Positions 12,871 through 25,890 of a stretch of DNA of 42,319 nt are shown in pieces (position 1 is the stretch's first letter; every line of letters starts with the position of its first letter). This DNA is from an uncultured Prevotellaceae bacterium (GTDB lineage: Bacteria; Bacteroidota; Bacteroidia; Bacteroidales; Bacteroidaceae), in the NCBI GenBank assembly GCA_900318305.1, contig ONKB01000111.1, forward strand, positions 1 to 42,319, read 5' to 3'. The notes under the pieces were generated by a model that worked only from the letters and a program-made list of their open reading frames with translations, was not told the origin of the DNA and did not search any database. A program made the translations under genes and the position numbers.

Positions 12871-13854
12871 CTATAGTCGTAGACCGAAGAAAGTGCGGAT
12901 TTGCCATTTTGCGTTGTGTATTGTGAGACTCTCTTCGTGACCGATATTGGTGAAGTTGAACACCATCGACATGCCGATGAATTTGTTGCCCCACTGGTGA
13001 ACAACAGCACCGCGACCAGTGATAATGACCTCGGGAAAGTGGTAATGAAGGGGAATGCGAGTGTCTCCGAAAGTCATGGATGTGTTACTGTAAACAATAA
13101 ACGTAGGCAGGGCCGAGATGTGCAACAGCCATTTTTTGCTCGGAACATAGTTGTAGCCATACCCTGCACCGATCCCCAAGTTTCTCATCTTCAAATCCAT
13201 TTTCTGTTCATAATCAAGCGTAGCGTGTTGTCCCATTCCCGATGCGGCTAACAGAAAACTTCCTGCAGATTGGAGTTGGATATAGCTTTGCGAGAAGGCA
13301 GCGGGGTAGGAGAATCGGCGGCTGTTGAAGACATAGAAAGCATTGATGTTGAGTGTCTGTACTTTCAGAATACCGTTAGGTAACTCAATGCGTGCCATTT
13401 CCCCGTGGTCGTGCCAGCCTGTGAAGTTCTTGGCATCCTGATAGATGATGTCAAAGCCGAAGTGCCGACCATAGCTATTGAAATTCAACTCGTAGTCGCG
13501 GTACTTGCCCATCAACTTCGCAGGGTTTAGAGCTGCACTGAGAGATAAACCGAGATAACTGACGCCCACACTGAGCGTTGCTTTCCTGGAGGCTTCCAAC
13601 TCAGATTTGAAATGTTGGCCGTTATCGGTTCCCTTGGTCTCAATCTTTGTACCCGACACATTTATCCGCGTAGTGAAAGTCCACTTGGTCTGTGGCCGCA
13701 TGATATACATCGTGTCGATGTTGCCCTTATAATAGCGGAGACTCAGAGAGTTGTCAATGTGCTGAAATATGTTCTGAGCATTAACAGCACTTGCTAAAGA
13801 ATGCAGAAGGATGATGACGGCCCACCATAGAGTTCTTAAACTATTTAGTATCAT
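12871..13854 (-). CDS. DUF4421 family outer-membrane protein
   Basis: 327 residues from the ATG at 13854, which starts a good signal peptide (hydrophobic TLWWAVIILLHSLASAVNAQ, cleavage after VNA). An upstream ATG at 13908 would add 18 residues ahead of the signal and is less likely. The mature part alternates aromatic and polar residues in many short strands and ends in RTFFGLRL with a near C-terminal aromatic pair, as in outer-membrane beta barrels. The pattern RYYKGNIDTMYIMRPQTKWTFTTRINVSG near the N-terminus matches the Bacteroidetes family DUF4421, whose function is unknown. It is the last gene of the polysaccharide locus, about 195 bases after the neighbouring glycosyltransferase. A link to polysaccharide assembly is inferred only from position. 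Confidence 0.8.
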   Translation of the reverse strand: MILNSLRTLWWAVIILLHSLASAVNAQNIFQHIDNSLSLRYYKGNIDTMYIMRPQTKWTFTTRINVSGTKIETKGTDNGQHFKSELEASRKATLSVGVSYLGLSLSAALNPAKLMGKYRDYELNFNSYGRHFGFDIIYQDAKNFTGWHDHGEMARIELPNGILKVQTLNINAFYVFNSRRFSYPAAFSQSYIQLQSAGSFLLAASGMGQHATLDYEQKMDLKMRNLGIGAGYGYNYVPSKKWLLHISALPTFIVYSNTSMTFGDTRIPLHYHFPEVIITGRGAVVHQWGNKFIGMSMVFNFTNIGHEESLTIHNAKWQIRTFFGLRL

Positions 13855-14048
13855 CTCGCCAAGGGCAAAAACACGAAGTGATGAAAGTTGTCTTTTAAAT
13901 ATGTTCATGTCTCGCTGAGTTGTACAGAGAACAGATACTCCTGGGCAATGGCAGTCATCTGTTTCACGATGAACTTCTGCGACATCCCTGATATTCCGTT
14001 TCTCCTCCGTATTCTTCTTTTACGATGTATGTACTTGCTTCTATACCT

Positions 14049-14882
14049 TTAGTGTTCAGTGATGCGACGGCGGATGGGACTGTCATAAATTCTACGGATG
14101 AGGGATATAGGCATGAGCCGGAAACAGAGCCGCCCCAGGGGATAGATGTATTTAAGAGAAAACGGACCCGAGAGCTTGTTGATGCCCTTGATATAGATAA
14201 GAAACTCGTTCCATGCTTTGGCCTTGCTGCGTCGCTGATAGACATTGTCGGCACGGCGGAAATGAAGGATAATAACAGGGAGGTTGCCGATATGGTATCC
14301 TTGGTGGATGGCATCAAACCACAGAGCTATATCCTGACTAGTGCGATAGCGCTCGTCGTAGTGTAGTCCATTATCAAAGATGCGACGGCGCATCATGACG
14401 GTTGGGTGGGCGAGTGGAGAGGCTTTATGAATCATGGAGATGACAGCCTGATGAGTAAGAGGGTACTGCCGGATATTGAGACAGGGGTTTTCGGCATTAA
14501 ATTCCTGGATGCAGCCTCCCACAATATCAATATCGGGATGGTTGTCAAGATATGCGGCCTGTTGCTCGAAGCGCTGGGGAGTGGAGCGGTCATCGCTATC
14601 CATGCGGGCTATATAGTTTCCCGTGGCTGCCTTGATGGCTTTGTTGAGCGAGTGAGTGAGTCCCATGTTGACAGGGTTGCTGACGAGGGTCAGGACCTGG
14701 CCGAGTTGGCTTTTCCAATGGGCTATGACGTCTTGTAACGGAGCTGGGAGAGGACCGTCCTGTATCAGTACTATCTGGGTGGGGCGGAGGGTCTGTTGTG
14801 ACCAGATGCTCTGCAAGGCTTCTTCAAGATACTGGGGTGTATCCTTGCTATATACGGATATGAGTACGGAAATGCTGGTCAT
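14049..14882 (-). CDS. Glycosyltransferase family 2 (AmsE-like)
   Basis: 277 residues, a cytoplasmic GT-A fold enzyme expected to add one sugar to the lipid-linked repeat unit. The N-terminus ISVLISVYSKDTPQYLEEAL is the nucleotide-sugar-binding start. The metal-binding motif is NYIARMDSDDRSTPQRF near residue 90, and the acceptor-side region AHPTVMMRRRIFD and RTSQDIALWFDAI (with ED-like QD) follows. The overall form resembles amylovoran AmsE-type transferases. Its start overlaps the ATP-grasp gene by 4 bases, indicating translational coupling. Donor, acceptor and linkage cannot be told from sequence. Confidence 0.9.
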   Translation of the reverse strand: MTSISVLISVYSKDTPQYLEEALQSIWSQQTLRPTQIVLIQDGPLPAPLQDVIAHWKSQLGQVLTLVSNPVNMGLTHSLNKAIKAATGNYIARMDSDDRSTPQRFEQQAAYLDNHPDIDIVGGCIQEFNAENPCLNIRQYPLTHQAVISMIHKASPLAHPTVMMRRRIFDNGLHYDERYRTSQDIALWFDAIHQGYHIGNLPVIILHFRRADNVYQRRSKAKAWNEFLIYIKGINKLSGPFSLKYIYPLGRLCFRLMPISLIRRIYDSPIRRRITEH

Positions 14883-15775
14883 GACTCAGTTTTTTGTATA
14901 TGGAAATGTTGCCCTAGGTCAAAGTCAAATTTGTCAGGGGTGTAGCGTATATATCCGCTCCATGGGTAAAAAGTTATCTCACCGAAATAAATAGCACCGT
15001 TAATGTTGTAGAGGTCGATGCGGGCGAAGGGGAAACCTTGTGCCAATTGCTCGGCCACATTGCGCATATCCAGAATGTTAGACGGCAGAATGGGGGCTTC
15101 TTCAACAGGAAATGTAGGCCAGTCGGAACTGACATGAGGAAGAAAGCGGAACTGCTCGTCCCAGAAACCGCGGCGGTGTTTGGAGTAGCGGTTCTTGTCT
15201 ATCCAGAGATAGCGGAACTTGCCGTCAAAGCAAAGGAACTTGTAGTCATCGATAGAACCATCGCTATTCTGGTCACTTTCAAGCAGCTGCTCAACGATAA
15301 CCCTGGACTGTCGGGCTCCCTTATAAGCCCACTCGCGAGAAATGACATCGTATTTTTTGTTGCGCCATGAGTTGACTTGGCGGACAATCTCGTCTGTGTT
15401 GAGCTGGCTCTTGTCCCGGCAAATAAGTACGTTGGCACCATCGCCACCATCTGTTGTCTTAATAACGAACTTGGCAGGCAGTGATTGGAAGTCAATCTGA
15501 CGGGCATCGTTGCACACCTGATAAAGGGGTACGAGGTAACGATCGGTACCGAGCCTGCTGGTTACAAAATCTCTGACAAGATACTTGTCCACACAGGGGA
15601 GCATATCGGAATTGTGGTAGAAGGCTTTATAGTATTGTATCTTGTCGGAGAATCGCTGAGGGTTTGACAGGTTGAGCCGGCGGCGCATCTTGACGAAGAA
15701 CTGCAGGCGCAACATGATGGTATCGGGAAGAAACCACAGCATACGGGCAATGATATAGAGCAGGTGTCGTTTCAT
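14879..15775 (-). CDS. TupA-like ATP-grasp protein in polysaccharide locus
   Basis: 298 residues. The sequence matches the TupA-like ATP-grasp family (PF14305). Features seen are the N-terminal FVKMRRRLNLSNPQRFSDKI with a conserved 'NP..FsDKI' pattern, FVIKTTDGGDGANVLIC as the ATP-binding Lys and glycine-rich loop near residue 105, VIVEQLL before a DYKFLCFDGKF block, and FARIDLYNINGAIYFGEITFYPWSG with the metal-binding Asp and Glu. ATP-grasp enzymes form acyl-phosphate intermediates and join a carboxylate to an amine. The named TupA of alkaliphilic Bacillus acts in teichuronopeptide synthesis. Here it sits between two glycosyltransferases with 4-base overlaps on both sides. Attachment of an amino acid to a uronic acid of the glycan is a reasonable guess. 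Confidence 0.88.
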   Translation of the reverse strand: MKRHLLYIIARMLWFLPDTIMLRLQFFVKMRRRLNLSNPQRFSDKIQYYKAFYHNSDMLPCVDKYLVRDFVTSRLGTDRYLVPLYQVCNDARQIDFQSLPAKFVIKTTDGGDGANVLICRDKSQLNTDEIVRQVNSWRNKKYDVISREWAYKGARQSRVIVEQLLESDQNSDGSIDDYKFLCFDGKFRYLWIDKNRYSKHRRGFWDEQFRFLPHVSSDWPTFPVEEAPILPSNILDMRNVAEQLAQGFPFARIDLYNINGAIYFGEITFYPWSGYIRYTPDKFDFDLGQHFHIQKTES

Positions 15776-16656
15776 ATCAGGGGAGTTAGTTTGCCACGAA
15801 GCCTGAAACCGTCACGGATGCCCCGGATGATATTCCGGAAATTTTCCACACGAGGGCTCATGAATAGGGGATAGAAAAAGAATTTGAGTATATATGTCCA
15901 CAAGCAGTGGCGTGTCCAGTATGATGGTGTATAGCTACGGTGAGATAAGATGATGAAATTGCGGTATTGGTAATAGAGCCTGCGTGGGGCTGACTTGCGC
16001 AAGGGCAGACTGGTTTCCGTACCCATGACATGATGTATGCGTAGGTTGTGATCCAGGTAGGAGCGGAGACCGCATCGGTGACGTGCACGCCAACTCCACT
16101 CATTGTCAACACCATCAATAAAAAGAGCCTCCTCCATGGGGCCGACTTGGTCGAGAATGTCCATTGTAGTGAGGCTGTAGGAGGAGATAATGGAGTGCAT
16201 CTCATGGATATGATGAGGGATGCCATCAACGATGATGGTAGATGGAGTTATGTAAATGCTGGATGTACTATAGCAGGTTTTGCCATTACGGGGTTCAATA
16301 GGGTCGGGGCCAACTACTGCAACGGGAAAGCCAGCTTGGGATAATGCCTCGAAGGTGGCTATCAGCCCTGTTACCAGATTGGATGGTGAAACGCTATCCT
16401 GATCACAGAACAATACATAGTGGCATCCTTGCTGTCGGAGAAAATCTATGCCCCTATTTTGGGCAAAGGCAATGCCAGTGTTTTTGCAGAGAGGAATGTA
16501 GTGGACTTTGTCTTTTCCAGAGAAGGCTTCTGCGCATGATAGGGAGGTATTATCAACCAGGCATATCAGGTCAACCTGAGGACTCAGTGTATCAAGCGAC
16601 TTGGAAAGTGTCTCCAAATCGGGATGATAGAGTACAATGATAACTCCTTTCTTCAT
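15772..16656 (-). CDS. Glycosyltransferase family 2, rhamnosyltransferase-like
   Basis: 294 residues. The N-terminus GVIIVLYHPDLETLSKSLDTL and LVDNTS are typical of the rhamnosyltransferase-like GT2 group. The metal-binding site is YVLFCDQDSVSPSNL near residue 84, and FIDGVDNEWSWRARHRCG is the matching acceptor-side block. The tail after about residue 230 has aromatic and basic stretches (YYQYRNFIILSHR) that probably touch the membrane. It is a paralogue of the next gene, with the same block order, so the two may add similar sugars in sequence. It overlaps both neighbours by 4 bases. The sugar specificity is a family-level suggestion, not established. Confidence 0.9.
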   Translation of the reverse strand: MKKGVIIVLYHPDLETLSKSLDTLSPQVDLICLVDNTSLSCAEAFSGKDKVHYIPLCKNTGIAFAQNRGIDFLRQQGCHYVLFCDQDSVSPSNLVTGLIATFEALSQAGFPVAVVGPDPIEPRNGKTCYSTSSIYITPSTIIVDGIPHHIHEMHSIISSYSLTTMDILDQVGPMEEALFIDGVDNEWSWRARHRCGLRSYLDHNLRIHHVMGTETSLPLRKSAPRRLYYQYRNFIILSHRSYTPSYWTRHCLWTYILKFFFYPLFMSPRVENFRNIIRGIRDGFRLRGKLTPLI

Positions 16657-17507
16657 TTCTTAAGACCAGCTTTTATTCCTTTCAACATATAGGATGCCCG
16701 CTCGCTGCCTCCATGGACAAAGAGGGGAAAATACAGCAGATGGGCGAGATATTTGACGCCTGTCGCTATTTTCCACCGCCAAGGTACATATTTTTTTCGA
16801 AAGAGCCAAAGAAAATTGCGATATTGATAATAATAGCGCACTGGAGCCGAGATGATGACCCTGTAGCCGAATGGGAAGCGTAACTCTCTGCGACCTACTT
16901 TGTGAAGGATGTGAACTTCTGTCGTGATGCCACAGAGGTAGCCTGCATGTTCTGCTCTCCAACACCACTCAAAGTCAACGAAGTCTATGAAAAGCCGACT
17001 GTCATTTAATCCTATTCTTTCAAGGTTTTCCCGGCTGATACAGCAGCCAGACGAAATGACTTCCCGTCGCTGTATGAACCGGTTGCCGATGAAATGGTCT
17101 TTGTGGATGACCGACTTGTATTCCTCACCCGAACCGAGATGTTTGACTGTGGGTCCCAAAACAGCGAGATTTGGGAAGGTCTGGTGAATAGCTATGAATT
17201 CGCTGACGATAATGGCGGGATAACTGTTGTCAACCCTGGTGTCCTGGTCAAAGAAGACTACATGGGTGAAGGCAGGGTTGTTAAGTGCTTTGTGCATGCC
17301 AATATTCTGTGCTTCGGCAATGCCCAGATTCTTGTGATTGCAGATGTATTCCAGTTTGCCAGGGGATAAACCGGCGGCAGCTTCCTCGGAATTGTCAATG
17401 ATATAGCCTGAGTAGACCTGACCGAGTTGTTCGAAGTATCTCAAGTCGGCCTCATTGGGATGAAATAGTACGATAATAAGGAATATACCAATGTTATTTT
17501 GCTCCAT
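16653..17507 (-). CDS. Glycosyltransferase family 2, rhamnosyltransferase-like
   Basis: 284 residues. It begins IFLIIVLFHPNEADLRYFEQL and carries HVVFFDQDTRVD (the DxD-like metal site, near residue 83). It also has FIDFVDFEWCWRAEHAGY and a membrane-proximal YYQYRNFLWLFRKKYVPWRW. These blocks line up one by one with the adjacent transferase at 15772-16656, so the pair arose by duplication or belongs to one subfamily. The enzyme should act at the cytoplasmic face on the undecaprenyl-linked intermediate. Its start lies 14 bases inside the end of the polymerase gene. The donor is unknown. Confidence 0.9.
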   Translation of the reverse strand: MEQNNIGIFLIIVLFHPNEADLRYFEQLGQVYSGYIIDNSEEAAAGLSPGKLEYICNHKNLGIAEAQNIGMHKALNNPAFTHVVFFDQDTRVDNSYPAIIVSEFIAIHQTFPNLAVLGPTVKHLGSGEEYKSVIHKDHFIGNRFIQRREVISSGCCISRENLERIGLNDSRLFIDFVDFEWCWRAEHAGYLCGITTEVHILHKVGRRELRFPFGYRVIISAPVRYYYQYRNFLWLFRKKYVPWRWKIATGVKYLAHLLYFPLFVHGGSERASYMLKGIKAGLKK

Positions 17508-18726
17508 AATAGTTGGTATTGAAGGTGACTCCTATCCGCCGTTGCAGGACAAAGAAGAAAACAAAAAGGTATTGTACCAGCATGGACAGGCTCAGTATAA
17601 GGTTTTCCTGATAGAATTGCAAGACAAGAATTTCAACAATGTAGGCGTACATACATTTGCTGATGGCTCCTCCATTGCGGCATTGGCGATAAAGCCAGCC
17701 TGTGAACACACCATAGACGGTGGAGAAGAAGGCAATCCCCTTATAGCCGAAATCCTCAAAGAAGGGTTGGAAGACGGTATAGACATTAGTAAACATGGGT
17801 ACCTGGGAGAATTCCTGGAGTTTGGGCTCAACGACAAATTGGCCTAATCCAAGTCGCGTGATAACGGCATAGAAGAAAGCAAACGACCGCGAACCGTACT
17901 GTTCGGTGAGTTTTTCTTGTACACGTTCAAAGGCCACGGACGGCGACATGACATATACGTTGAAGAAATCGAGGAATGTGGATTCCCTGACAGTGTTCTC
18001 AGAGGTACGCATCTGATTGATGCCGTGGAATGTGAAGAGCAGTATTATGCCCCACAGAATGATGGTGCGTATCTTGATGTGTCCTTTCTCGTATAAAATG
18101 AAAAGAGAGACAGTTAGCATGAAAAACAATGCTCCTTTTTCCATGATGGCGACGGCGCACATGAAACTGGCGAGGATGATAGCGATAAAACGCCACTTGT
18201 TTCCGTTAGGATAGCGCCACATCTCTATGATAAACAATGCCTGGTTGATGGCATTGACATAGATAAGCAAAGTTTGCAGCATGTCCTTCTCTCCAGCGGA
18301 GGCAAAGATGCGGAGGTTGAAGAATATGTCCTGTGTGCCAAACATGGAGATGACCTTGTAGATGTTGTAGACATACAGGGGGGTGCATACCATAGAGATG
18401 GTAAAAAACATCATGTAAAACAACTCATTAACATGGATGTCCCGGGCGATGTCAATATCGTTTTCTGACTGGCACAGTTCCTTGGCAGAAGGGAAGGCGT
18501 AATAGGTGATGATGCTTGTGGCAGACATTAGAAGGACCCAGATAATGACACAGGTGTAGAAACGGCTTTGGAGAGGGTAGAGTAAATTCCCGCTGAACTG
18601 GAAGAGGATGAGAATAGCTAACCATACAAGTGTGGTAATCATCCATGGAGAGAAGAGGTCGCCAATCTTCAGCAGAAGGAAGGAGACGGCCATAAGAGCG
18701 AGTAATATGATAAGAACCCAAGCCAT
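17494..18726 (-). CDS. wzy: Wzy-like O-antigen/oligosaccharide repeat-unit polymerase
   Basis: 410 residues with about ten hydrophobic helices and a long periplasmic loop in the second half (around SPSVAFERVQEKLTEQYGSRSF). That is the usual topology of polymerases that join repeat units on the periplasmic face. Wzy proteins share little sequence, so the call rests on topology and on position between the flippase and glycosyltransferase genes. It starts 7 bases after the flippase gene ends and overlaps the next transferase by 14 bases. A WaaL-type ligase has a similar topology and is the main alternative, but Wzy fits better beside Wzx and Wzz. Confidence 0.82.
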   Translation of the reverse strand: MAWVLIILLALMAVSFLLLKIGDLFSPWMITTLVWLAILILFQFSGNLLYPLQSRFYTCVIIWVLLMSATSIITYYAFPSAKELCQSENDIDIARDIHVNELFYMMFFTISMVCTPLYVYNIYKVISMFGTQDIFFNLRIFASAGEKDMLQTLLIYVNAINQALFIIEMWRYPNGNKWRFIAIILASFMCAVAIMEKGALFFMLTVSLFILYEKGHIKIRTIILWGIILLFTFHGINQMRTSENTVRESTFLDFFNVYVMSPSVAFERVQEKLTEQYGSRSFAFFYAVITRLGLGQFVVEPKLQEFSQVPMFTNVYTVFQPFFEDFGYKGIAFFSTVYGVFTGWLYRQCRNGGAISKCMYAYIVEILVLQFYQENLILSLSMLVQYLFVFFFVLQRRIGVTFNTNYYGAK

Positions 18727-18733
18727 GTGTCGT

Positions 18734-20068
18734 CTATTTTATCCAGATTCCTTTTCCCGTACCGTTCATTATCTTGTGGAATTGTAGCATGTTAACGACA
18801 GCCCCTGGGATATTGACCAGACACAGGGCCAAAAGCATGCCTGTGACATCAAGCCAACGACTCAGGAGCCACGCCAAAGGGAAATAAACCACTGCTGCCA
18901 TCAGAGAGAATATGATTTGCAGGCGTAGGATGCCAAAACCGTTGAGGAAGTAACTATAGCAAAGGCTGGATATAATAATCATCATGTAGAAGGCCATGCA
19001 GATTGTAATAGAGAGCGGAATAACAACATCGTTGCCCACCCAGATATTTACCCATATATAGTATATAGGTTTGGAGAAGATGACCATGAGAATGAGACAG
19101 ACGGCGAGGAGCAACAGAATCTTTTGCAGACTGCGGATGGATTTGGCAATCCAGACATAGTCTTTTTTCTCGTAGGCATCGGTAGTGGCGCTCCAGAAAG
19201 GCATGGCGATGATGGTGAAAATCATCATGGTGAAACTGAAATAACGATAGGCTATCTGATAGGGGGTCACCATCTCAGGAGAAAAGAAGTGGGAAATCAT
19301 TACATTGGAGGAGGTGAAGAGAATGAGGCCGGCAATCTGAAGAATAAAAAATTTGATGCCAATATTGAACAATTCAAAAACGGCATTCTTGTTAAAGTAA
19401 GCAATGGAGGGCTTCAGATGGGGGTATCTAACATTGAATGTAATTGGCCATGCACACAGATATACAAGAAGAGGGGCTAAGGTATATGCAATGGCTACCA
19501 GCATCAGGGAATGGATGTCGGCAATTTTCAGCAGATAGATGAGAATCAATGTCAGAGTCTGTCCGCAGACAACCAAAGCGTTGTTAACCGCTGGTAACTG
19601 AAGACCCAGATAAATGTTGCCAATGAATTTGAAAATAAATGTCCCGCTGACACATGCGACAGAGAGCATTAGGATGTCGTTCAGACGAGGTATGACAGTT
19701 TTGTCGATATTGAGCAGGGCGTAGAAATCAAGAGTGTTGATGAATACGATACACAACAGAGCCAAAGGAATCATAACCAGTATGAGCATGAAAAAAGTGG
19801 AGGAAACACTCTCGCGTGCCTTTTTTATATCACCTTGTGCCAATTGAGATGCCAGCTTGTTGCGTAAGCCGTTACCAAGACCAATATCAAGATGGTCAAC
19901 CCATAGGAGAAGGGAACTGATGGTCATCCAGATCCCATTTTCGTAGTTGCCAAGGCAGAAGAGAGTAAGGGGCACCAGAAGGAGCTGTACGGCACCAGAC
20001 CACCCTTTGAGCGCAAAGGAGAAGTATATATTTTTCTTGAGTAAAGATGTCCTATGATTGCTTTCCAT
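18734..20068 (-). CDS. wzx: Wzx-like polysaccharide flippase
   Basis: 444 residues with about 12-14 membrane helices, of the polysaccharide transporter (PST/MATE-like) fold. It moves the lipid-linked repeat unit from the cytoplasmic to the periplasmic face. The early block SSLLLWVDHLDIGLGNGLRNKLA is a clear Wzx-type signature ('D.GLGNGLRNkla'). Helices continue to the C-terminus at GTGKGIWIK. The start ATG overlaps the upstream Wzz-like gene by 17 bases. With Wzy and the two Wzz proteins it defines a Wzx/Wzy-dependent pathway. Confidence 0.9.
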   Translation of the reverse strand: MESNHRTSLLKKNIYFSFALKGWSGAVQLLLVPLTLFCLGNYENGIWMTISSLLLWVDHLDIGLGNGLRNKLASQLAQGDIKKARESVSSTFFMLILVMIPLALLCIVFINTLDFYALLNIDKTVIPRLNDILMLSVACVSGTFIFKFIGNIYLGLQLPAVNNALVVCGQTLTLILIYLLKIADIHSLMLVAIAYTLAPLLVYLCAWPITFNVRYPHLKPSIAYFNKNAVFELFNIGIKFFILQIAGLILFTSSNVMISHFFSPEMVTPYQIAYRYFSFTMMIFTIIAMPFWSATTDAYEKKDYVWIAKSIRSLQKILLLLAVCLILMVIFSKPIYYIWVNIWVGNDVVIPLSITICMAFYMMIIISSLCYSYFLNGFGILRLQIIFSLMAAVVYFPLAWLLSRWLDVTGMLLALCLVNIPGAVVNMLQFHKIMNGTGKGIWIK

Positions 20069-21068
20069 CTGGGCAGAGTGTTTTTAATTGATGCTTTTTG
20101 CGGTATAGTATAAACCAAGTCGTCCCAATCCAGCTGTAGAATAGCCAGATAAAGAAATTAGCTATCCAATGAGGCCGAGAAGGATTGAGTGGTATGGCAT
20201 TGGAAGTGAAATCTATAAAGTTGGGACGTGTTTTATCATAGTTTATCTTCGTAATGTTGTATTGTTGGATAGCCTCATTGTATTCTTGCAGACTGAGGTC
20301 GGCAGCCTTTTCCAAGTTTTTCAGTTCAATGGAACCAGACGGCGTTGTTATGTCAAAATGGTGTTCGGAATAGCTGTTGTATTTGTCTTGTGCCTGCCTG
20401 TAATTCTCTTTGGCGGCCATCATGTCTTTTTTCCTGTTTTTCAAATCTATCTCAGCCTTGAACCTGATATATTTGTAAAGTTCCTCTTGTAAATAGTAGC
20501 TGACCGTATCAACCATCTGAAATGCCACGAAAGGGTCTTGGTCAGCAACCCGTATGGTCAGAAGACCATTGTGCATGTTTACCTCGCACTTGACATTCTG
20601 TTGAATCAGTTCTATGGGACTTTTTTCTCTGAGCAAAAAGTTCCACCAAGGTTTCTGTGCTGCAACTAGGTGCTGTGTGTATGTTTCTCTTTTTTTCCCA
20701 TCAAAAGTCTTGAGACTAATCCTTTCCATGTTGGAAAGGAACAGAGGTGAGCGCAGGATGAGGGCATAAATCTCGGGATCAGTCGTTACTGTGGACGGAT
20801 TCAGTCCAGTCTGTTTCTCAACAAGAAGTCCTCTTTCTCCCTTTTCCAGAATGTCGTCTTTTGTGGCATCAACGGAAATCTGCTTGAAGGCATGATATAC
20901 AGGAGGTATGGATAAAGAAATGATAGAGGCACCTATAAGAGCCAGAATACCTGTGATAAAGTATAGTCGGCGCTGTTTCCAGCAAACCTCCCACACGCTC
21001 CATTTTGAATCAGTAGCAGACAAACTAGTTGTTATAAGTGAATAATTCCTTGCGATGAAGAACAGCAA
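20052..21068 (-). CDS. Second Wzz-like chain-length determinant protein
   Basis: 338 residues with the Wzz topology: a cytoplasmic N-terminus with WSVWEVCWKQRR, a first membrane helix (LYFITGILALIGASIISLSIP, about 35-55), a large periplasmic domain rich in coiled coil (IDLKNRKKDMMAAKENYRQAQ and following), and a second helix (WIANFFIWLFYSWIGTTWFIL, about 300-320). There is no kinase domain at the C-terminus. The start overlaps the other Wzz gene by 44 bases. No later ATG precedes the first helix, so this start or a nearby alternative codon must be used. It probably modulates chain length together with its neighbour. Confidence 0.82.
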   Translation of the reverse strand: MLFFIARNYSLITTSLSATDSKWSVWEVCWKQRRLYFITGILALIGASIISLSIPPVYHAFKQISVDATKDDILEKGERGLLVEKQTGLNPSTVTTDPEIYALILRSPLFLSNMERISLKTFDGKKRETYTQHLVAAQKPWWNFLLREKSPIELIQQNVKCEVNMHNGLLTIRVADQDPFVAFQMVDTVSYYLQEELYKYIRFKAEIDLKNRKKDMMAAKENYRQAQDKYNSYSEHHFDITTPSGSIELKNLEKAADLSLQEYNEAIQQYNITKINYDKTRPNFIDFTSNAIPLNPSRPHWIANFFIWLFYSWIGTTWFILYRKKHQLKTLCPDGKQS

Positions 21069-22086
21069 GAACAGACAGCCTGATAATGATACCTAAAATA
21101 ATGAAGAGAACTAAAATATAGACCTTCTTAATATTGCAACTCTTAATAGGAACACTGGCTCCCTGAATAACTGTGAAAGCGGGAGTACTTTCCTGCAACT
21201 TTGCTTTTGCTAATTGTAATTGCTGTGCGACTTGGGTGTAGATATTATATTTCAATTGCATCTCATTTTCCAGATTTTCACGTTTTGAGCTAACTGACTG
21301 GAGAATGACATCTGTGTTTGCGTCACTGAAACGAGCATATTGCTGTCTAGCATTATCGTAGTCTTCTTTAGATTCAGCAAAGAGTTTCTCCATATACTCC
21401 AAATCATTGCGCGCTTTGTTGGTGCGATAGCGTGTAATGAAATCCTGGAGTCTGTTTTTGACAGAGTCTGCCATTGTAGCAGCAATAAGAGGATCTTGGG
21501 CTGTAAATTCAATAGAGATGATATATGTTTTTTTGTCAACAACACAACTCATGTTCTTTCTTGTAGCACTGACAAGTCCGTATTGCTTGCGGGACAGCCG
21601 GTAAGGGTTGATCTTGCTGCCTCCACTGCCCGTCATGTCATCCTTAGGGAGCAGTAGCTTTATCAGAAGATTTGCCGGAATGCTCCACCATGTTATTTTC
21701 TGGTATTTCTTAAGATACTCGTAATATGTGGTATTGATTTCCCCGTCAAGAGATTTTACTTTGAGGTCAAACAAACTAACGATAAACTCGTTTGATGACA
21801 TCATGTCAGGGTATATCTCTGGGTATATGGCATCACCATTTGGGTTGGCATCAGAATAGAGCCCTACCATTGAAGCCAGAGAGGTAATGCTAGATAACAT
21901 GTTGTTGGAAGAAGTCTCGGGAGCCAATTCTATACTGGCTTTGTATTTCTTGGGGATGCTGAATGCAATGATAAGTCCTACAATGATGGATATAAAGATG
22001 TAAAGTCCTATACTCTTTTTTTCGGAATAGACAATCTTCCAGAATTTAAGGATATCAAACTCTATTTTGTATTTTTTCTGTTCCAT
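21025..22086 (-). CDS. Wzz-like chain-length determinant protein
   Basis: 353 residues. The cytoplasmic N-terminus (YKIEFDILKFWKIVYSEKK) leads to a membrane helix at about 28-48 (GLYIFISIIVGLIIAFSIP), a periplasmic domain with the usual Wzz opening YKASIELAPET, a long helical region (EYMEKLFAESKEDYDNARQQ-like), and a final helix VYILVLFIILGIIIRLSVLAVL. It lacks a BY-kinase domain. It controls the number of repeat units joined by Wzy, probably in contact with the SLBB export protein encoded 27 bases upstream. Confidence 0.88.
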   Translation of the reverse strand: MEQKKYKIEFDILKFWKIVYSEKKSIGLYIFISIIVGLIIAFSIPKKYKASIELAPETSSNNMLSSITSLASMVGLYSDANPNGDAIYPEIYPDMMSSNEFIVSLFDLKVKSLDGEINTTYYEYLKKYQKITWWSIPANLLIKLLLPKDDMTGSGGSKINPYRLSRKQYGLVSATRKNMSCVVDKKTYIISIEFTAQDPLIAATMADSVKNRLQDFITRYRTNKARNDLEYMEKLFAESKEDYDNARQQYARFSDANTDVILQSVSSKRENLENEMQLKYNIYTQVAQQLQLAKAKLQESTPAFTVIQGASVPIKSCNIKKVYILVLFIILGIIIRLSVLAVLHRKELFTYNN

Positions 22087-22113: not shown

Positions 22114-24648
22114 CTATTTTGTTAAGTTCGCAATGGTGGCAATCATAGTGGCGATGCTGGCCATACCAGTTCCAATTCCCATGGTTTCGGCTATGCTCAT
22201 TTTCCGGCTGATTTTGCTAGGTATGATAATTTCACATCCAGGAGCTATCGGTGTCTTGTTAGTGAGCTTGCTTGCTTTGCCGTTCATGTATATGATGTAT
22301 GCGTTTTTCTTGCGGGCATTCTGTGATGTGCCGCCGGCAGCATTCAAGTAATACTTTGCTTTTTTCCCTTTCAGGTATGTTATGGTATTGGGATACATGA
22401 CAGCACCATTGACTTTTACAGTGGCGGTATATTGAGGGAGGATAAGCTTGTCGCCAGCCCGCAATACAATATTGGCCTCGCTTGAAGGATCCTTGATGGC
22501 CTGATCCAGGGAAATCTCAACAGGGTATGTGTTAGGAACCTCGAATTTCTGCATTTGCGTGTTGGCCGTCTGCTGGCTCACTTGCTGGATGTTGTTGGCA
22601 TTCTGACTGCTTGCGGCGAGTTCCAGTAATTGCTGTTGCAGAAGTTCCTGTTGCATCTTGTACACTGCCTCCATGCGTGCTTTTTCCGCATCATTAGCCA
22701 CTCGTTCCAAACGTGCGCCTTGTATATATGCAAGGTTTGTTGGTCCTCCTGCTATGTTTAAAAGATCAGTAAGTCTTGACTGCTGCTTTGTCAAGGTATA
22801 ATTACCCGCAAACAGGACTTCTCCTTCAATACTCACATTTTTCTGCTCAGAGAACCCGGGACTTTTTCTAACGTAAACCTGATCAAAAGGCATCAGTACA
22901 AAACCAGGTTGCCCATCGACGACAAAACCGTCTTTCAAGGCAAAACTGAATGTCTGGGCGATAACGCTATCAGGCTTTGTTGCCTGTGGATTGGTAATTC
23001 TTCTGGACACGTCAACTTTTACTGTTGAGGCTTTGTCTGTAAGTCCGCCAGCTTGGAGTACGAAATCCTCGAGGGTCTCGTTCTCGGCATATTTGTATAT
23101 TCCAGGATACAGTACTTCGCCCGAAATACTCAAAGTGCGCTCTATCATGGCCTCTTTTGTACTCGGGATAAAGAGTACATCATTCTCTTTCAACGGAATG
23201 TCGGCAGTGGTGCCGTTGAGGATGCCGCCAAGATCAACACTAACAACTTCCAAAGTGCGGTCGGCCTTCATCCTGTGGATAATGGCTCGTGCAGTGAAAG
23301 CTTCCTCTGTGATGCCTTCTGCTTGCTGAACAAGACTCCTGACACTATTAATCTTGTTGTCTATCTGATATTTCCCGGGACGGAAGACAGCTCCTTTAAC
23401 CTCTACGGTATTGTGATACCTTGGCAGAATGGAGTCAACGAGAACATTATCCCCATCGGCGACATGGAAATTGCCAAAGTCAAACTCCTCGACATTGAAA
23501 GCGCTGTATTCCCGTCCTGTCTTGCGATCCACACAGATAGCCTTGGTATAGGCATCGCCAGTGAAACCACCTGAATAGGAGATGAGTGACTTAATGCTCT
23601 CGTCTTTTTTCATCTCATATATCATTGGGCGTTTAACTTTACCTGTAATAGTTACCAGGCAGTCGTAGGGACCCACACTGATGACATCTCCTTCGGTAAG
23701 ACGGATGTTGCCAGTCATTTTCCCATTCAGGATGTAGTCGTAGATGTCGCATGTACTGACTAACTGGTTATTCCTGTAGACTTTGATGCTTCGCAAGGTA
23801 CCCAGGTCATTAATACCGCCTGCCATATAAAGAGCATGGAACACACTCGCAAAAGCCGACAAGGTATAGGTGCCTGGGTTTTTGACCTCTCCCATGACAT
23901 TAACAGTGATGGTGCGTGTCTGTCCTAAGGAGATTTTTATGCGGCTACTTTGATAACGTGCTCCCAGCTGGGTTTTGATGCGGTTGTTTGCTTGAGCAAT
24001 TGTCAGTCCGCTGACTTGGATAGGACCATAGTTCTCAATGACGATGTCTCCGTCAGGTGAGACAGATGAATTGATAGACTTCTGCGATGCTCCGTAAATA
24101 TCAATAATGACGTTGTCACCAGGTCCTAAACGGTAGTTTTGGGGAGTAGCGATATTCATTAGCGGTTCAAAGGTCAGGTCCTTGTTGTTGAATATATCTC
24201 TGCCGAAGACTTTGTTGCCAGACTTGTTCTCATGTTCGCTGTTTTTTATGCCGTCAAGTTCTTCCTTGTAAGTCTTATAATCATCGTTGTTTTCATCGAA
24301 TTTTTGCTTTTCAATGATATTCCCTTGGATTTGTTGGGAACTGGTGTTCTCCTTGAATTGTTCCTTGTTTAAACTGTTGCTGGCGCGTAGGCGGTTATTC
24401 TTGTTGTCATTCTGTTCCTGCACTCCCAATCCCGACTCGTTGAGCTGGCGCTGGTATGCCCTGCGCACACGGCGGATCTGGGTGATGTCAACGCCTCGTT
24501 GAACTAGTTTGGTGACAATGGTTGTCTGGGGTGTACCCTTGGCCATTTCTTTCTGAATAAACTCTGCGACTTGTGTGTCGGTCAGTGATGACTGGCTGAC
24601 AGCATAGATGGGACAAAGTAATAAGAATATAATAAGAGCTTTTCTCAT
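22114..24648 (-). CDS. SLBB-domain polysaccharide export protein (Wza-like)
   Basis: 844 residues from the ATG at 24648, which starts the signal peptide MRKALIIFLLLCPIYAVSQ. The open frame runs 43 codons further upstream, but that part is the dispersed repeat and its promoter, so it is not used. After a Gln/Asn-rich linker comes the export domain (NYRLGPGDNVIIDIYGAS near residue 170). About six SLBB-type units follow, each with a 'G.V..PG.Y' turn, such as GEVKNPGTYTL, GKVKRPMIYEM, GAVFRPGKYQI, GEVLYPGIYKY and GEVLFAGNYTL. A hydrophobic helix near the end (TMGIGTGMASIATMIATIANL) could cross a membrane. It is expected to form the outer-membrane or periplasmic exit channel. It is first in the run of polysaccharide genes under the repeat promoter. 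Confidence 0.92.
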   Translation of the reverse strand: MRKALIIFLLLCPIYAVSQSSLTDTQVAEFIQKEMAKGTPQTTIVTKLVQRGVDITQIRRVRRAYQRQLNESGLGVQEQNDNKNNRLRASNSLNKEQFKENTSSQQIQGNIIEKQKFDENNDDYKTYKEELDGIKNSEHENKSGNKVFGRDIFNNKDLTFEPLMNIATPQNYRLGPGDNVIIDIYGASQKSINSSVSPDGDIVIENYGPIQVSGLTIAQANNRIKTQLGARYQSSRIKISLGQTRTITVNVMGEVKNPGTYTLSAFASVFHALYMAGGINDLGTLRSIKVYRNNQLVSTCDIYDYILNGKMTGNIRLTEGDVISVGPYDCLVTITGKVKRPMIYEMKKDESIKSLISYSGGFTGDAYTKAICVDRKTGREYSAFNVEEFDFGNFHVADGDNVLVDSILPRYHNTVEVKGAVFRPGKYQIDNKINSVRSLVQQAEGITEEAFTARAIIHRMKADRTLEVVSVDLGGILNGTTADIPLKENDVLFIPSTKEAMIERTLSISGEVLYPGIYKYAENETLEDFVLQAGGLTDKASTVKVDVSRRITNPQATKPDSVIAQTFSFALKDGFVVDGQPGFVLMPFDQVYVRKSPGFSEQKNVSIEGEVLFAGNYTLTKQQSRLTDLLNIAGGPTNLAYIQGARLERVANDAEKARMEAVYKMQQELLQQQLLELAASSQNANNIQQVSQQTANTQMQKFEVPNTYPVEISLDQAIKDPSSEANIVLRAGDKLILPQYTATVKVNGAVMYPNTITYLKGKKAKYYLNAAGGTSQNARKKNAYIIYMNGKASKLTNKTPIAPGCEIIIPSKISRKMSIAETMGIGTGMASIATMIATIANLTK

Positions 24649-24690
24649 AATAGCTTGACAGTTGTTTTGTTGATAGGTGTTATATGTTAA

Positions 24691-24752
24691 TACAAAATTA
24701 CAATTAAGCGGGCGAAGAGCAAAATGAACCTGTTCTTTTTTTCCAGGGGTAT
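24691..24752 (-). repeat. Dispersed promoter repeat, single copy at the SLBB export gene
   Basis: The plus strand reads TACAAAATTACAATTAAGCG and continues with GAAGAGCAAAATGAACCTGTTCTTTTTTT. It matches the copies at 27200, 30549 and 40199 with scattered substitutions. The inverted-repeat arms are AAAATGAAC and GTTCTTTT with a CT centre; one arm position is mismatched. It is the most diverged copy that keeps the full layout. Confidence 0.75.
24693..24723 (-). promoter_or_regulatory. Repeat-borne promoter for the SLBB export gene and polysaccharide operon
   Basis: Minus strand: TTTG (24720-24723), 19 bases, TAATTTTG (24693-24700). Transcription would start near 24686, with a leader of about 38 bases to the ATG at 24648. 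Both promoter boxes are intact although the surrounding repeat has drifted, which suggests they are under selection. Confidence 0.72.
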
Positions 24753-24798
24753 GAGGTTTCAACGCTTGATGCCTCAATATTATATCTATAGAATGTTT

Positions 24799-25890
24799 TT
24801 ACTTATGATGTTTTGAAGTGCATGGAGATTTTTGTATTGTGAAGATGAAAAGAGAGTACAGTAAGATGTCCAATACCAAGATGAGAGTCTTGGACATCAA
24901 CGGGTAACAAATATAGTTTACACCGCAAATGAAGATGAAAAACGCAATGATGGTGATGAGAGTCTGTCTCATGCTTAATCCACTTTGCATAAGAAGGTGA
25001 TGGATGTGTGTTTTGTCGGCATCAAACATCTTCTTTCCGCTGATTTTTCTGAAAATTGCAACTCTGATAACATCAATGCATGGGATGAATAGTAATGTTG
25101 TAGATATTAGCAGAGATTCTTCACGGTAGTTGTAGACGCCCGTTTCGTTGTACATCTGGTATTTTATGGCGAGATAAGCTAACACATAACCCAGGAAAAG
25201 ACTTCCGGCATCTCCCATGAAGATTTTGTTCTTTCCAACTTTACCAAAGACATTGAATATCAGGAAAGCAAGAATAGCCCCTGCCAAACTGGAACTCATC
25301 AAACTGAATATAGTTGAATCCAATTGGAGGAAGAGATATGCGAAAGTGATGAGAATCAGAAATGCCAGACTTGAGGATAAGCCGTCAATACCGTCAATAA
25401 GATTGATGGCGTTGACAATAAGCAAAATAGACAACACCGTGATGGGGTAGCTTAGCCACAAAGATATCTCATATATGCCGAAGAAGCCGTGCAGGTTGTT
25501 TATCATCAGGTTGCACAAGGGGAAGAACAATGCGGCAATAAACTGTATGACAAACTTGTGCGACGCATCGATGCCTTTCAAATCGTCAATGATACCTATA
25601 AGGAAAATCATAAAGGCGCCAGCTATCATTAGAAAAGTTGAGATGGTGATTTCGAAATTCTTCTGGAATCCTCCATACATAATGGAGAGTGCGATGGCGA
25701 CACCTATACCCATGGAAGGCATAAACAGAGTGCCTCCTAAGCGGGGTATAGCAATATTGTGTACCTTCCTGTCGTTGGGTAAGTCGTATAGTTTGTGCTT
25801 CTTGCACAACTGGATAATAACGGGTGTGGTGACAAAAGAGAATAAAAAGCTTACAGCAAAAGCTATGATAATATAGAGAATCAGACCCAT
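24799..25890 (-). CDS. WecA/MraY-like undecaprenyl-phosphate sugar-1-phosphate transferase
   Basis: 363 residues with about ten or eleven membrane helices. It transfers a sugar-1-phosphate, probably GlcNAc-1-P, from its UDP donor to undecaprenyl phosphate, starting the repeat unit. Signatures are HNIAIPRLGG near residue 44, FLIGIIDDLKGID (Asp-Asp pair, near 100), VNAINLIDGIDGLSSS near 160, FMGDAGSLFLGY near 224 and the His-containing loop DADKTHIHHLLMQSGLS near 295. All match the WecA branch rather than MraY. It is separated from the rest of the locus by the SLBB promoter repeat, so it may be transcribed apart from it. The sugar is inferred from the family. Confidence 0.93.
   Translation of the reverse strand: MGLILYIIIAFAVSFLFSFVTTPVIIQLCKKHKLYDLPNDRKVHNIAIPRLGGTLFMPSMGIGVAIALSIMYGGFQKNFEITISTFLMIAGAFMIFLIGIIDDLKGIDASHKFVIQFIAALFFPLCNLMINNLHGFFGIYEISLWLSYPITVLSILLIVNAINLIDGIDGLSSSLAFLILITFAYLFLQLDSTIFSLMSSSLAGAILAFLIFNVFGKVGKNKIFMGDAGSLFLGYVLAYLAIKYQMYNETGVYNYREESLLISTTLLFIPCIDVIRVAIFRKISGKKMFDADKTHIHHLLMQSGLSMRQTLITIIAFFIFICGVNYICYPLMSKTLILVLDILLYSLFIFTIQKSPCTSKHHK

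Follow-up and report, generated by a model that had tools for sequence, protein, structure and literature searches.

A predicted TupA-family amidoligase in a Wzx/Wzy polysaccharide operon of an uncultured Prevotellaceae bacterium

The product of a TupA-family ATP-grasp gene (ATPG), found in a polysaccharide operon of an uncultured Prevotellaceae bacterium, probably amidates a uronic acid of the lipid-linked repeat unit, with a free amino acid as the most likely donor of the amine, after which the product of the adjacent glycosyltransferase gene, GT_C, would extend the glycan. This reading draws on sequence comparison, a structure model and analogy to related systems, from which we infer which amine is donated, which sugar accepts it and that GT_C may act as a gate. 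It is well supported that ATPG is genuine, intact and typical of its family, and that it represents a known kind of enzyme rather than a new system. Surface glycans, which gut Bacteroidales vary heavily, change in charge and in antigenicity when they carry amino-acid amides.

The ATPG gene and its operon

ATPG lies in contig ONKB01000111.1 (assembly GCA_900318305.1), which was analyzed over its 42,319 nucleotides (the window). The minus-strand operon has the following order:

24799..25890, minus: initiating undecaprenyl-phosphate sugar-1-phosphate transferase, WecA/MraY family (PF00953 3e-37)
22114..24777, minus: SLBB/Poly_export (Wza-like) outer-membrane export protein (PF10531 1.4e-46; PF02563 1.1e-16)
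21025..22086, minus: Wzz-like chain-length protein A (PF02706 4e-7)
20052..21068, minus: Wzz-like chain-length protein B (PF02706 1.3e-5)
18734..20068, minus: Wzx flippase (PF01554 MatE 3.7e-10; PF01943 9.6e-7)
17494..18726, minus: Wzy, oligosaccharide repeat-unit polymerase (TIGR04370 147.3 bits, cut-off 40)
16653..17507, minus: GT_A, GT2 glycosyltransferase (TIGR01556 146.8 bits, below cut-off)
15772..16656, minus: GT_B, GT2 glycosyltransferase (PF00535 9.3e-8; TIGR01556 rhamnosyltransferase 152.8 bits, below cut-off 200.6)
14879..15775, minus: ATPG, predicted TupA-family ATP-grasp amidoligase, 298 aa, ATG start, TGA stop (PF14305 E=1.4e-39)
14049..14882, minus: GT_C, GT2 glycosyltransferase, EpsE-like (PF00535 2.6e-21; NF053739 EpsE 2.5e-31, below its cut-off)

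As judged from these gene families, the locus is a Wzx/Wzy/Wza-type polysaccharide operon. The source genome has only two PF00953 genes, one of which encodes the initiating transferase of this operon. Profile searches of the window detected no nucleotide-sugar genes within the operon, in agreement with the sequence-only reading, which had described a Wzx/Wzy operon lacking such genes. They also detected no aminotransferase, amine-synthesis, Cj1435-type phosphatase or amine-phosphate genes in the operon. The claimed coupling of ATPG to glycosyltransferase genes on both sides was likewise seen, as 4-base ATGA overlaps with GT_B (15772-15775) and GT_C (14879-14882). The Pfam profile PF14305 (ATPgrasp_TupA) matched ATPG with 136.5 bits (cut-off 25), covering profile positions 2-240 of 241, and a profile search found no other PF14305 gene in the source genome.

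The same operon was present, gene for gene in the compared parts, in two congeneric genomes of two species (G040 and G096), and ATPG is thus not a chance open reading frame. Other congeners carried different genes beyond the common SLBB/Wzz genes. Decoration had been proposed as the main source of glycan diversity, a role that found no support here: congener loci differ wholesale in their glycosyltransferases. A foreign origin of ATPG was considered on the basis of composition and rejected: its GC (0.486) and GC3 (0.585) fall inside the spread of the window genes and give no such signal. In addition, a DUF4421 gene is located just beyond GT_C (12871-13908), where G096 has a non-matching gene on the opposite strand; the DUF4421 gene may be an accessory of the variable locus.

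Fold and active site

The structure of ATPG was modeled with AlphaFold2 from nine sequences (mean pLDDT 89.1, pTM 0.89). A sequence search of solved structures with ATPG gave zero matches, and assignment of the fold therefore rests on the model. Top solved relatives of the model were D-Ala-D-Ala ligases (Ddl; Z 13.7, 4.0 A over 216 residues). Matches were also observed to VanA-type ligases, to LysX/ArgX (Z 12.5-12.6; LysX 12.6) and, in Foldseek, to RimK. Structural relatives of the modeled protein are mostly ligases that join a carboxylate to an amine. This Ddl/LysX/ArgX/RimK fold and the PF14305 match both support the earlier identification of a TupA-like ATP-grasp protein.

The ATP-grasp active site has been defined by a linker lysine, a lysine of RAGNYA strand 2, an acid of the penultimate strand and an ExN-type motif of the final strand (PMC4431377). 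In ATPG, the linker lysine is K64. In the model, K106 lies near the terminus of RAGNYA strand 2 (E103-107), D254 is the penultimate-strand acid (E250-258), and the final strand (E261-268) closes with E266-x-T268, the ExN-type motif, in which the TupA family has T instead of N. The corresponding codons are as follows:

15584-15586, minus: K64
15458-15460, minus: K106
15014-15016, minus: D254
14978-14980, minus: E266
14972-14974, minus: T268

Residue conservation was counted in 75 aligned PF14305 members, including the window protein. K64, K106, R252, D254, E266 and T268 were kept in all 75, and E162, D177, Y178 and K179, all of which are present in ATPG, in 74 of the 75. By alignment and model, ATPG is an intact ATP-grasp enzyme with all ATP/Mg residues conserved. 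A structural check for missing metal or ATP residues had been proposed along with the first identification, and all of these residues were present.

ATP-grasp enzymes are diverse, and biotin carboxylase and carbamoyl-phosphate synthetase were also among the structural matches of the model. The fold could serve another reaction, such as ester formation or phosphoryl transfer, or ATPG could be a non-catalytic partner of a glycosyltransferase. We consider this highly improbable, given that the active-site residues are retained across the 75 homologues and that the sole characterized TupA-like domain is an amide ligase.

Sugar precursors and the likely acceptor

Contig C68 of the source genome encodes Ugd, an SDR epimerase, galK and rmlA/D/B. 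The best match of Ugd is UDP-glucose 6-dehydrogenase (PRK15057 494.8 bits, below its cut-off of 757; TIGR03026 314.8, above its cut-off), and the SDR epimerase gene is close by. Apart from Ugd, no clear UDP-sugar dehydrogenase was found in the window genome or in G040 and G096. The source genome is thus predicted to be capable of making a nucleotide-activated uronic acid, and because it has both Ugd and a neighboring epimerase, the likely acceptor of ATPG is a uronic-acid carboxylate rather than the common sugars suggested earlier. Sugar-dehydrogenase genes were also found near TupA homologues in other loci, with a strong match in L076 and weak ones in L044, L047 and L053, a proximity that is suggestive in these few loci.

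Two observations speak against the uronate route. GT_A and GT_B appear most similar to rhamnosyltransferases, not to uronosyltransferases. In addition, presence of a UDP-sugar dehydrogenase fails as a discriminator within the genus, as most congeners have one, with or without an ATPG gene. We also observed that Ugd (L062:9908-11317, G000:C68) appears to carry several dozen inserted residues at ~190-240, where the profile match splits in two; its homologues in G096 and G040 are of similar length.

The bond could also be formed in the reverse direction, with ATPG activating an amino acid or similar small acid at its carboxylate and coupling it to the amine of an amino sugar, as in N-aminoacyl 4-amino sugars. 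Ddl, RimK and LysX do activate amino-acid or peptide carboxylates, the source genome contains two strong DegT/DnrJ-type aminotransferases that are candidate makers of amino sugars, and N-linked amino acids occur on amino sugars of other glycans (PMC10609480). However, the operon has no aminotransferase gene, the E. coli cluster described below likewise has none, and the only characterized TupA-like enzyme uses a sugar carboxylate, which makes this N-acylation rather unlikely.

Comparison with characterized systems

TupA, the Pfam namesake of PF14305, functions in teichuronopeptide synthesis in alkaliphilic Bacillus. By profile, it belongs to the same family as ATPG; the relationship is remote. 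A closer functional parallel is offered by Campylobacter jejuni, in which the TupA-like ATP-grasp domain Cj1438C amidates glucuronic acid with ATP and (S)-serinol-P or ethanolamine-P, and the GT2 that acts after this step works only on the amide (PMC11800379). Likened by description, Cj1438 and ATPG are both TupA-like ATP-grasp proteins of surface-polysaccharide assembly coupled to a GT2. However, the Cj1438 domain is fused to a GT2, of which it forms the C-terminal part, and its capsule pathway includes dedicated amine-phosphate enzymes, whereas ATPG is a stand-alone 298-aa ORF in a Wzx/Wzy operon without amine genes. We rejected assignment of the ATPG locus to the C. jejuni HS:2 type of system, since the operon has neither a GT2 fusion nor amine-phosphate/phosphatase genes.

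A second parallel came from E. coli. The amidoligase of an O167-type cluster (WP_001757500.1, strain 214-4) is 41% identical to ATPG over 293 aa and shares the active-site strand FGEITFYPWSG; its ATP-binding loop, GNNGSE, is shorter than that of ATPG (TTDGGDGAN). Both clusters use the Wzx/Wzy pathway, and neither contains amine-synthesis genes. The E. coli cluster adjoins ugd and an epimerase gene, both of which the window genome has on C68, where the SDR epimerase matches the E. coli one with 379 bits. E. coli is of a different phylum, and its cluster differs in sugars; it contains glf, so galactofuranose is probably present. Assignment to the O167 type follows the NCBI annotation of wzx and wzy of this cluster (O167 family). 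In L120 (NZ_CP062824.1 77559-102416), from an E. coli strain named O169:H41, the wzx and wzy genes bear the O167-family annotation.

The nearest ATPG relative tied to a chemically studied glycan is, by sequence, the member of this O167-type cluster, and this tie turns a vague amino-acid idea into a concrete, testable chemical prediction. In the tree, placement of ATPG near the E. coli protein was weak (SH-aLRT 88, unresolved), which counts against the analogy. Reportedly, the amino acid of the O167 O-antigen is L-alanine, on which we do not rely. In PMC4663550, the O167 O-antigen (Linnerborg 1997) is cited as one of those that carry an amino acid in amide linkage.

A variant of the uronate reading differs only in the donor: in place of an amino acid, ATPG could use ammonia, an amine phosphate or an amino alcohol, much as in C. 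jejuni HS:2. Glycans with primary amides or with amides of 2-aminopropane-1,3-diol have been described, and Cj1438C itself accepts two amine phosphates. However, the HS:2 capsule pathway relies on a phosphatase of its own, Cj1435, and on other auxiliary enzymes, which have no counterpart in the ATPG operon, and the closest glycan-linked relative belongs to the O167 type, cited with an amide-linked amino acid. We regard such a donor as improbable.

Proposed pathway

Amidation of a uronate with an amino acid, the preferred reading, could proceed as follows. Ugd, with or without the C68 epimerase, would supply UDP-GlcA or UDP-GalA; both genes were observed, and the substrate is suggested by them. 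A glycosyltransferase would add the uronic acid, most simply GT_B, which is a candidate for this step. In the cytoplasm, ATPG would then act on the undecaprenyl-PP-linked repeat, phosphorylating the C6 carboxylate of the uronate with ATP, as expected from the mechanism of the ATP-grasp family, and coupling the acyl phosphate to an amine. Because no amine-synthesis genes are present, an ordinary amino acid in free form is the most likely source of this amino group. GT_C, which is predicted to extend the amidated sugar, would add the next sugar, possibly on the amidated acceptor only, as suggested by gene linkage and Cj1438. Finally, by the standard pathway, Wzx would flip the repeat, Wzy would polymerize it, and Wzz and the SLBB porin would serve in export. 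The earlier prediction of an amide decoration on this glycan is supported by the family, residues and modeled fold of ATPG and by the analogy to Cj1438C and the O167-type cluster.

Linkage of ATPG to glycosyltransferase genes

In a Phocaeicola metagenome-assembled genome (locus L003), the GT_B-ATPG-GT_C block was kept (190, 418 and 325 bits, respectively), with the GT_B homologue directly upstream of ATPG, in a polysaccharide locus that has no match to the window Wzy and only a distant Wzx. In another locus (L004), one gene separates ATPG from the following GT_C homologue (341 bits). In the E. coli O167-type cluster, a GT_C-like GT2 gene is directly downstream of the amidoligase gene (28% identity, 99.7 bits). 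Among 2079 ORFs, 62 had GT_C-like matches, and the five best besides the window gene adjoin ATPG or come one gene after it; the loci were chosen via ATPG-family homology or as genus neighbors, so this linkage holds within such loci, not genome-wide. These arrangements suggest that GT_B-ATPG-GT_C travels as a module, of which the ATPG-GT_C part recurs in the E. coli cluster; both observations are new here.

It is possible, although we propose it only tentatively, that ATPG and GT_C constitute a transferable 'amidate-then-extend' module of Bacteroidales capsule/EPS and E. coli O-antigen loci, in which GT_C takes only the amidated uronic acid. If so, amidation would be no optional decoration but an obligatory checkpoint in the assembly of the repeat unit. 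Low identity between GT_C and its E. coli counterpart argues against the preferred reading of ATPG, as does the sixth-best GT_C-like match (L081, 93.7 bits), which scores nearly as high and is not adjacent to ATPG.

Distribution of the family

Glycan amidation by proteins of this kind had been called little described in Bacteroidales. We found PF14305 in 72 of 251 sampled genomes, or about three in ten, and in 19 of 30 genera of the source organism's family; moreover, Cj1438C has been characterized biochemically, and the name 'ATP-grasp fold amidoligase' is already in use at NCBI for these proteins. When closer relatives of ATPG were sought across the order, none above 38% identity came up besides the window itself. 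In the flanks of homologues (133 genes), the commonest families were GT1, GT2 and Wzy_C, and glycosyltransferase neighbors are usual for the PF14305 family.

Several other observations were made in these loci. Seven of the 133 flanking genes matched PGA_cap (CapA-like) and five matched ATPgrasp_ST, another ATP-grasp family (e.g., L042-L081), perhaps reflecting further amide chemistry. One locus (L078, G155:C14:36001-56000) contained three different TupA homologues within ~9 kb, which suggests several distinct amidations in one glycan. ATPG also matched 88 Klebsiella plasmid records, with identity of roughly 26-30% among the matches listed. In the one plasmid inspected, a conjugative plasmid of Klebsiella pneumoniae (NZ_CP046382.1), the TupA-like amidoligase gene (L127:5944-6846) was located outside any polysaccharide cluster and adjoined genes for MipA/OmpV and a two-component system.
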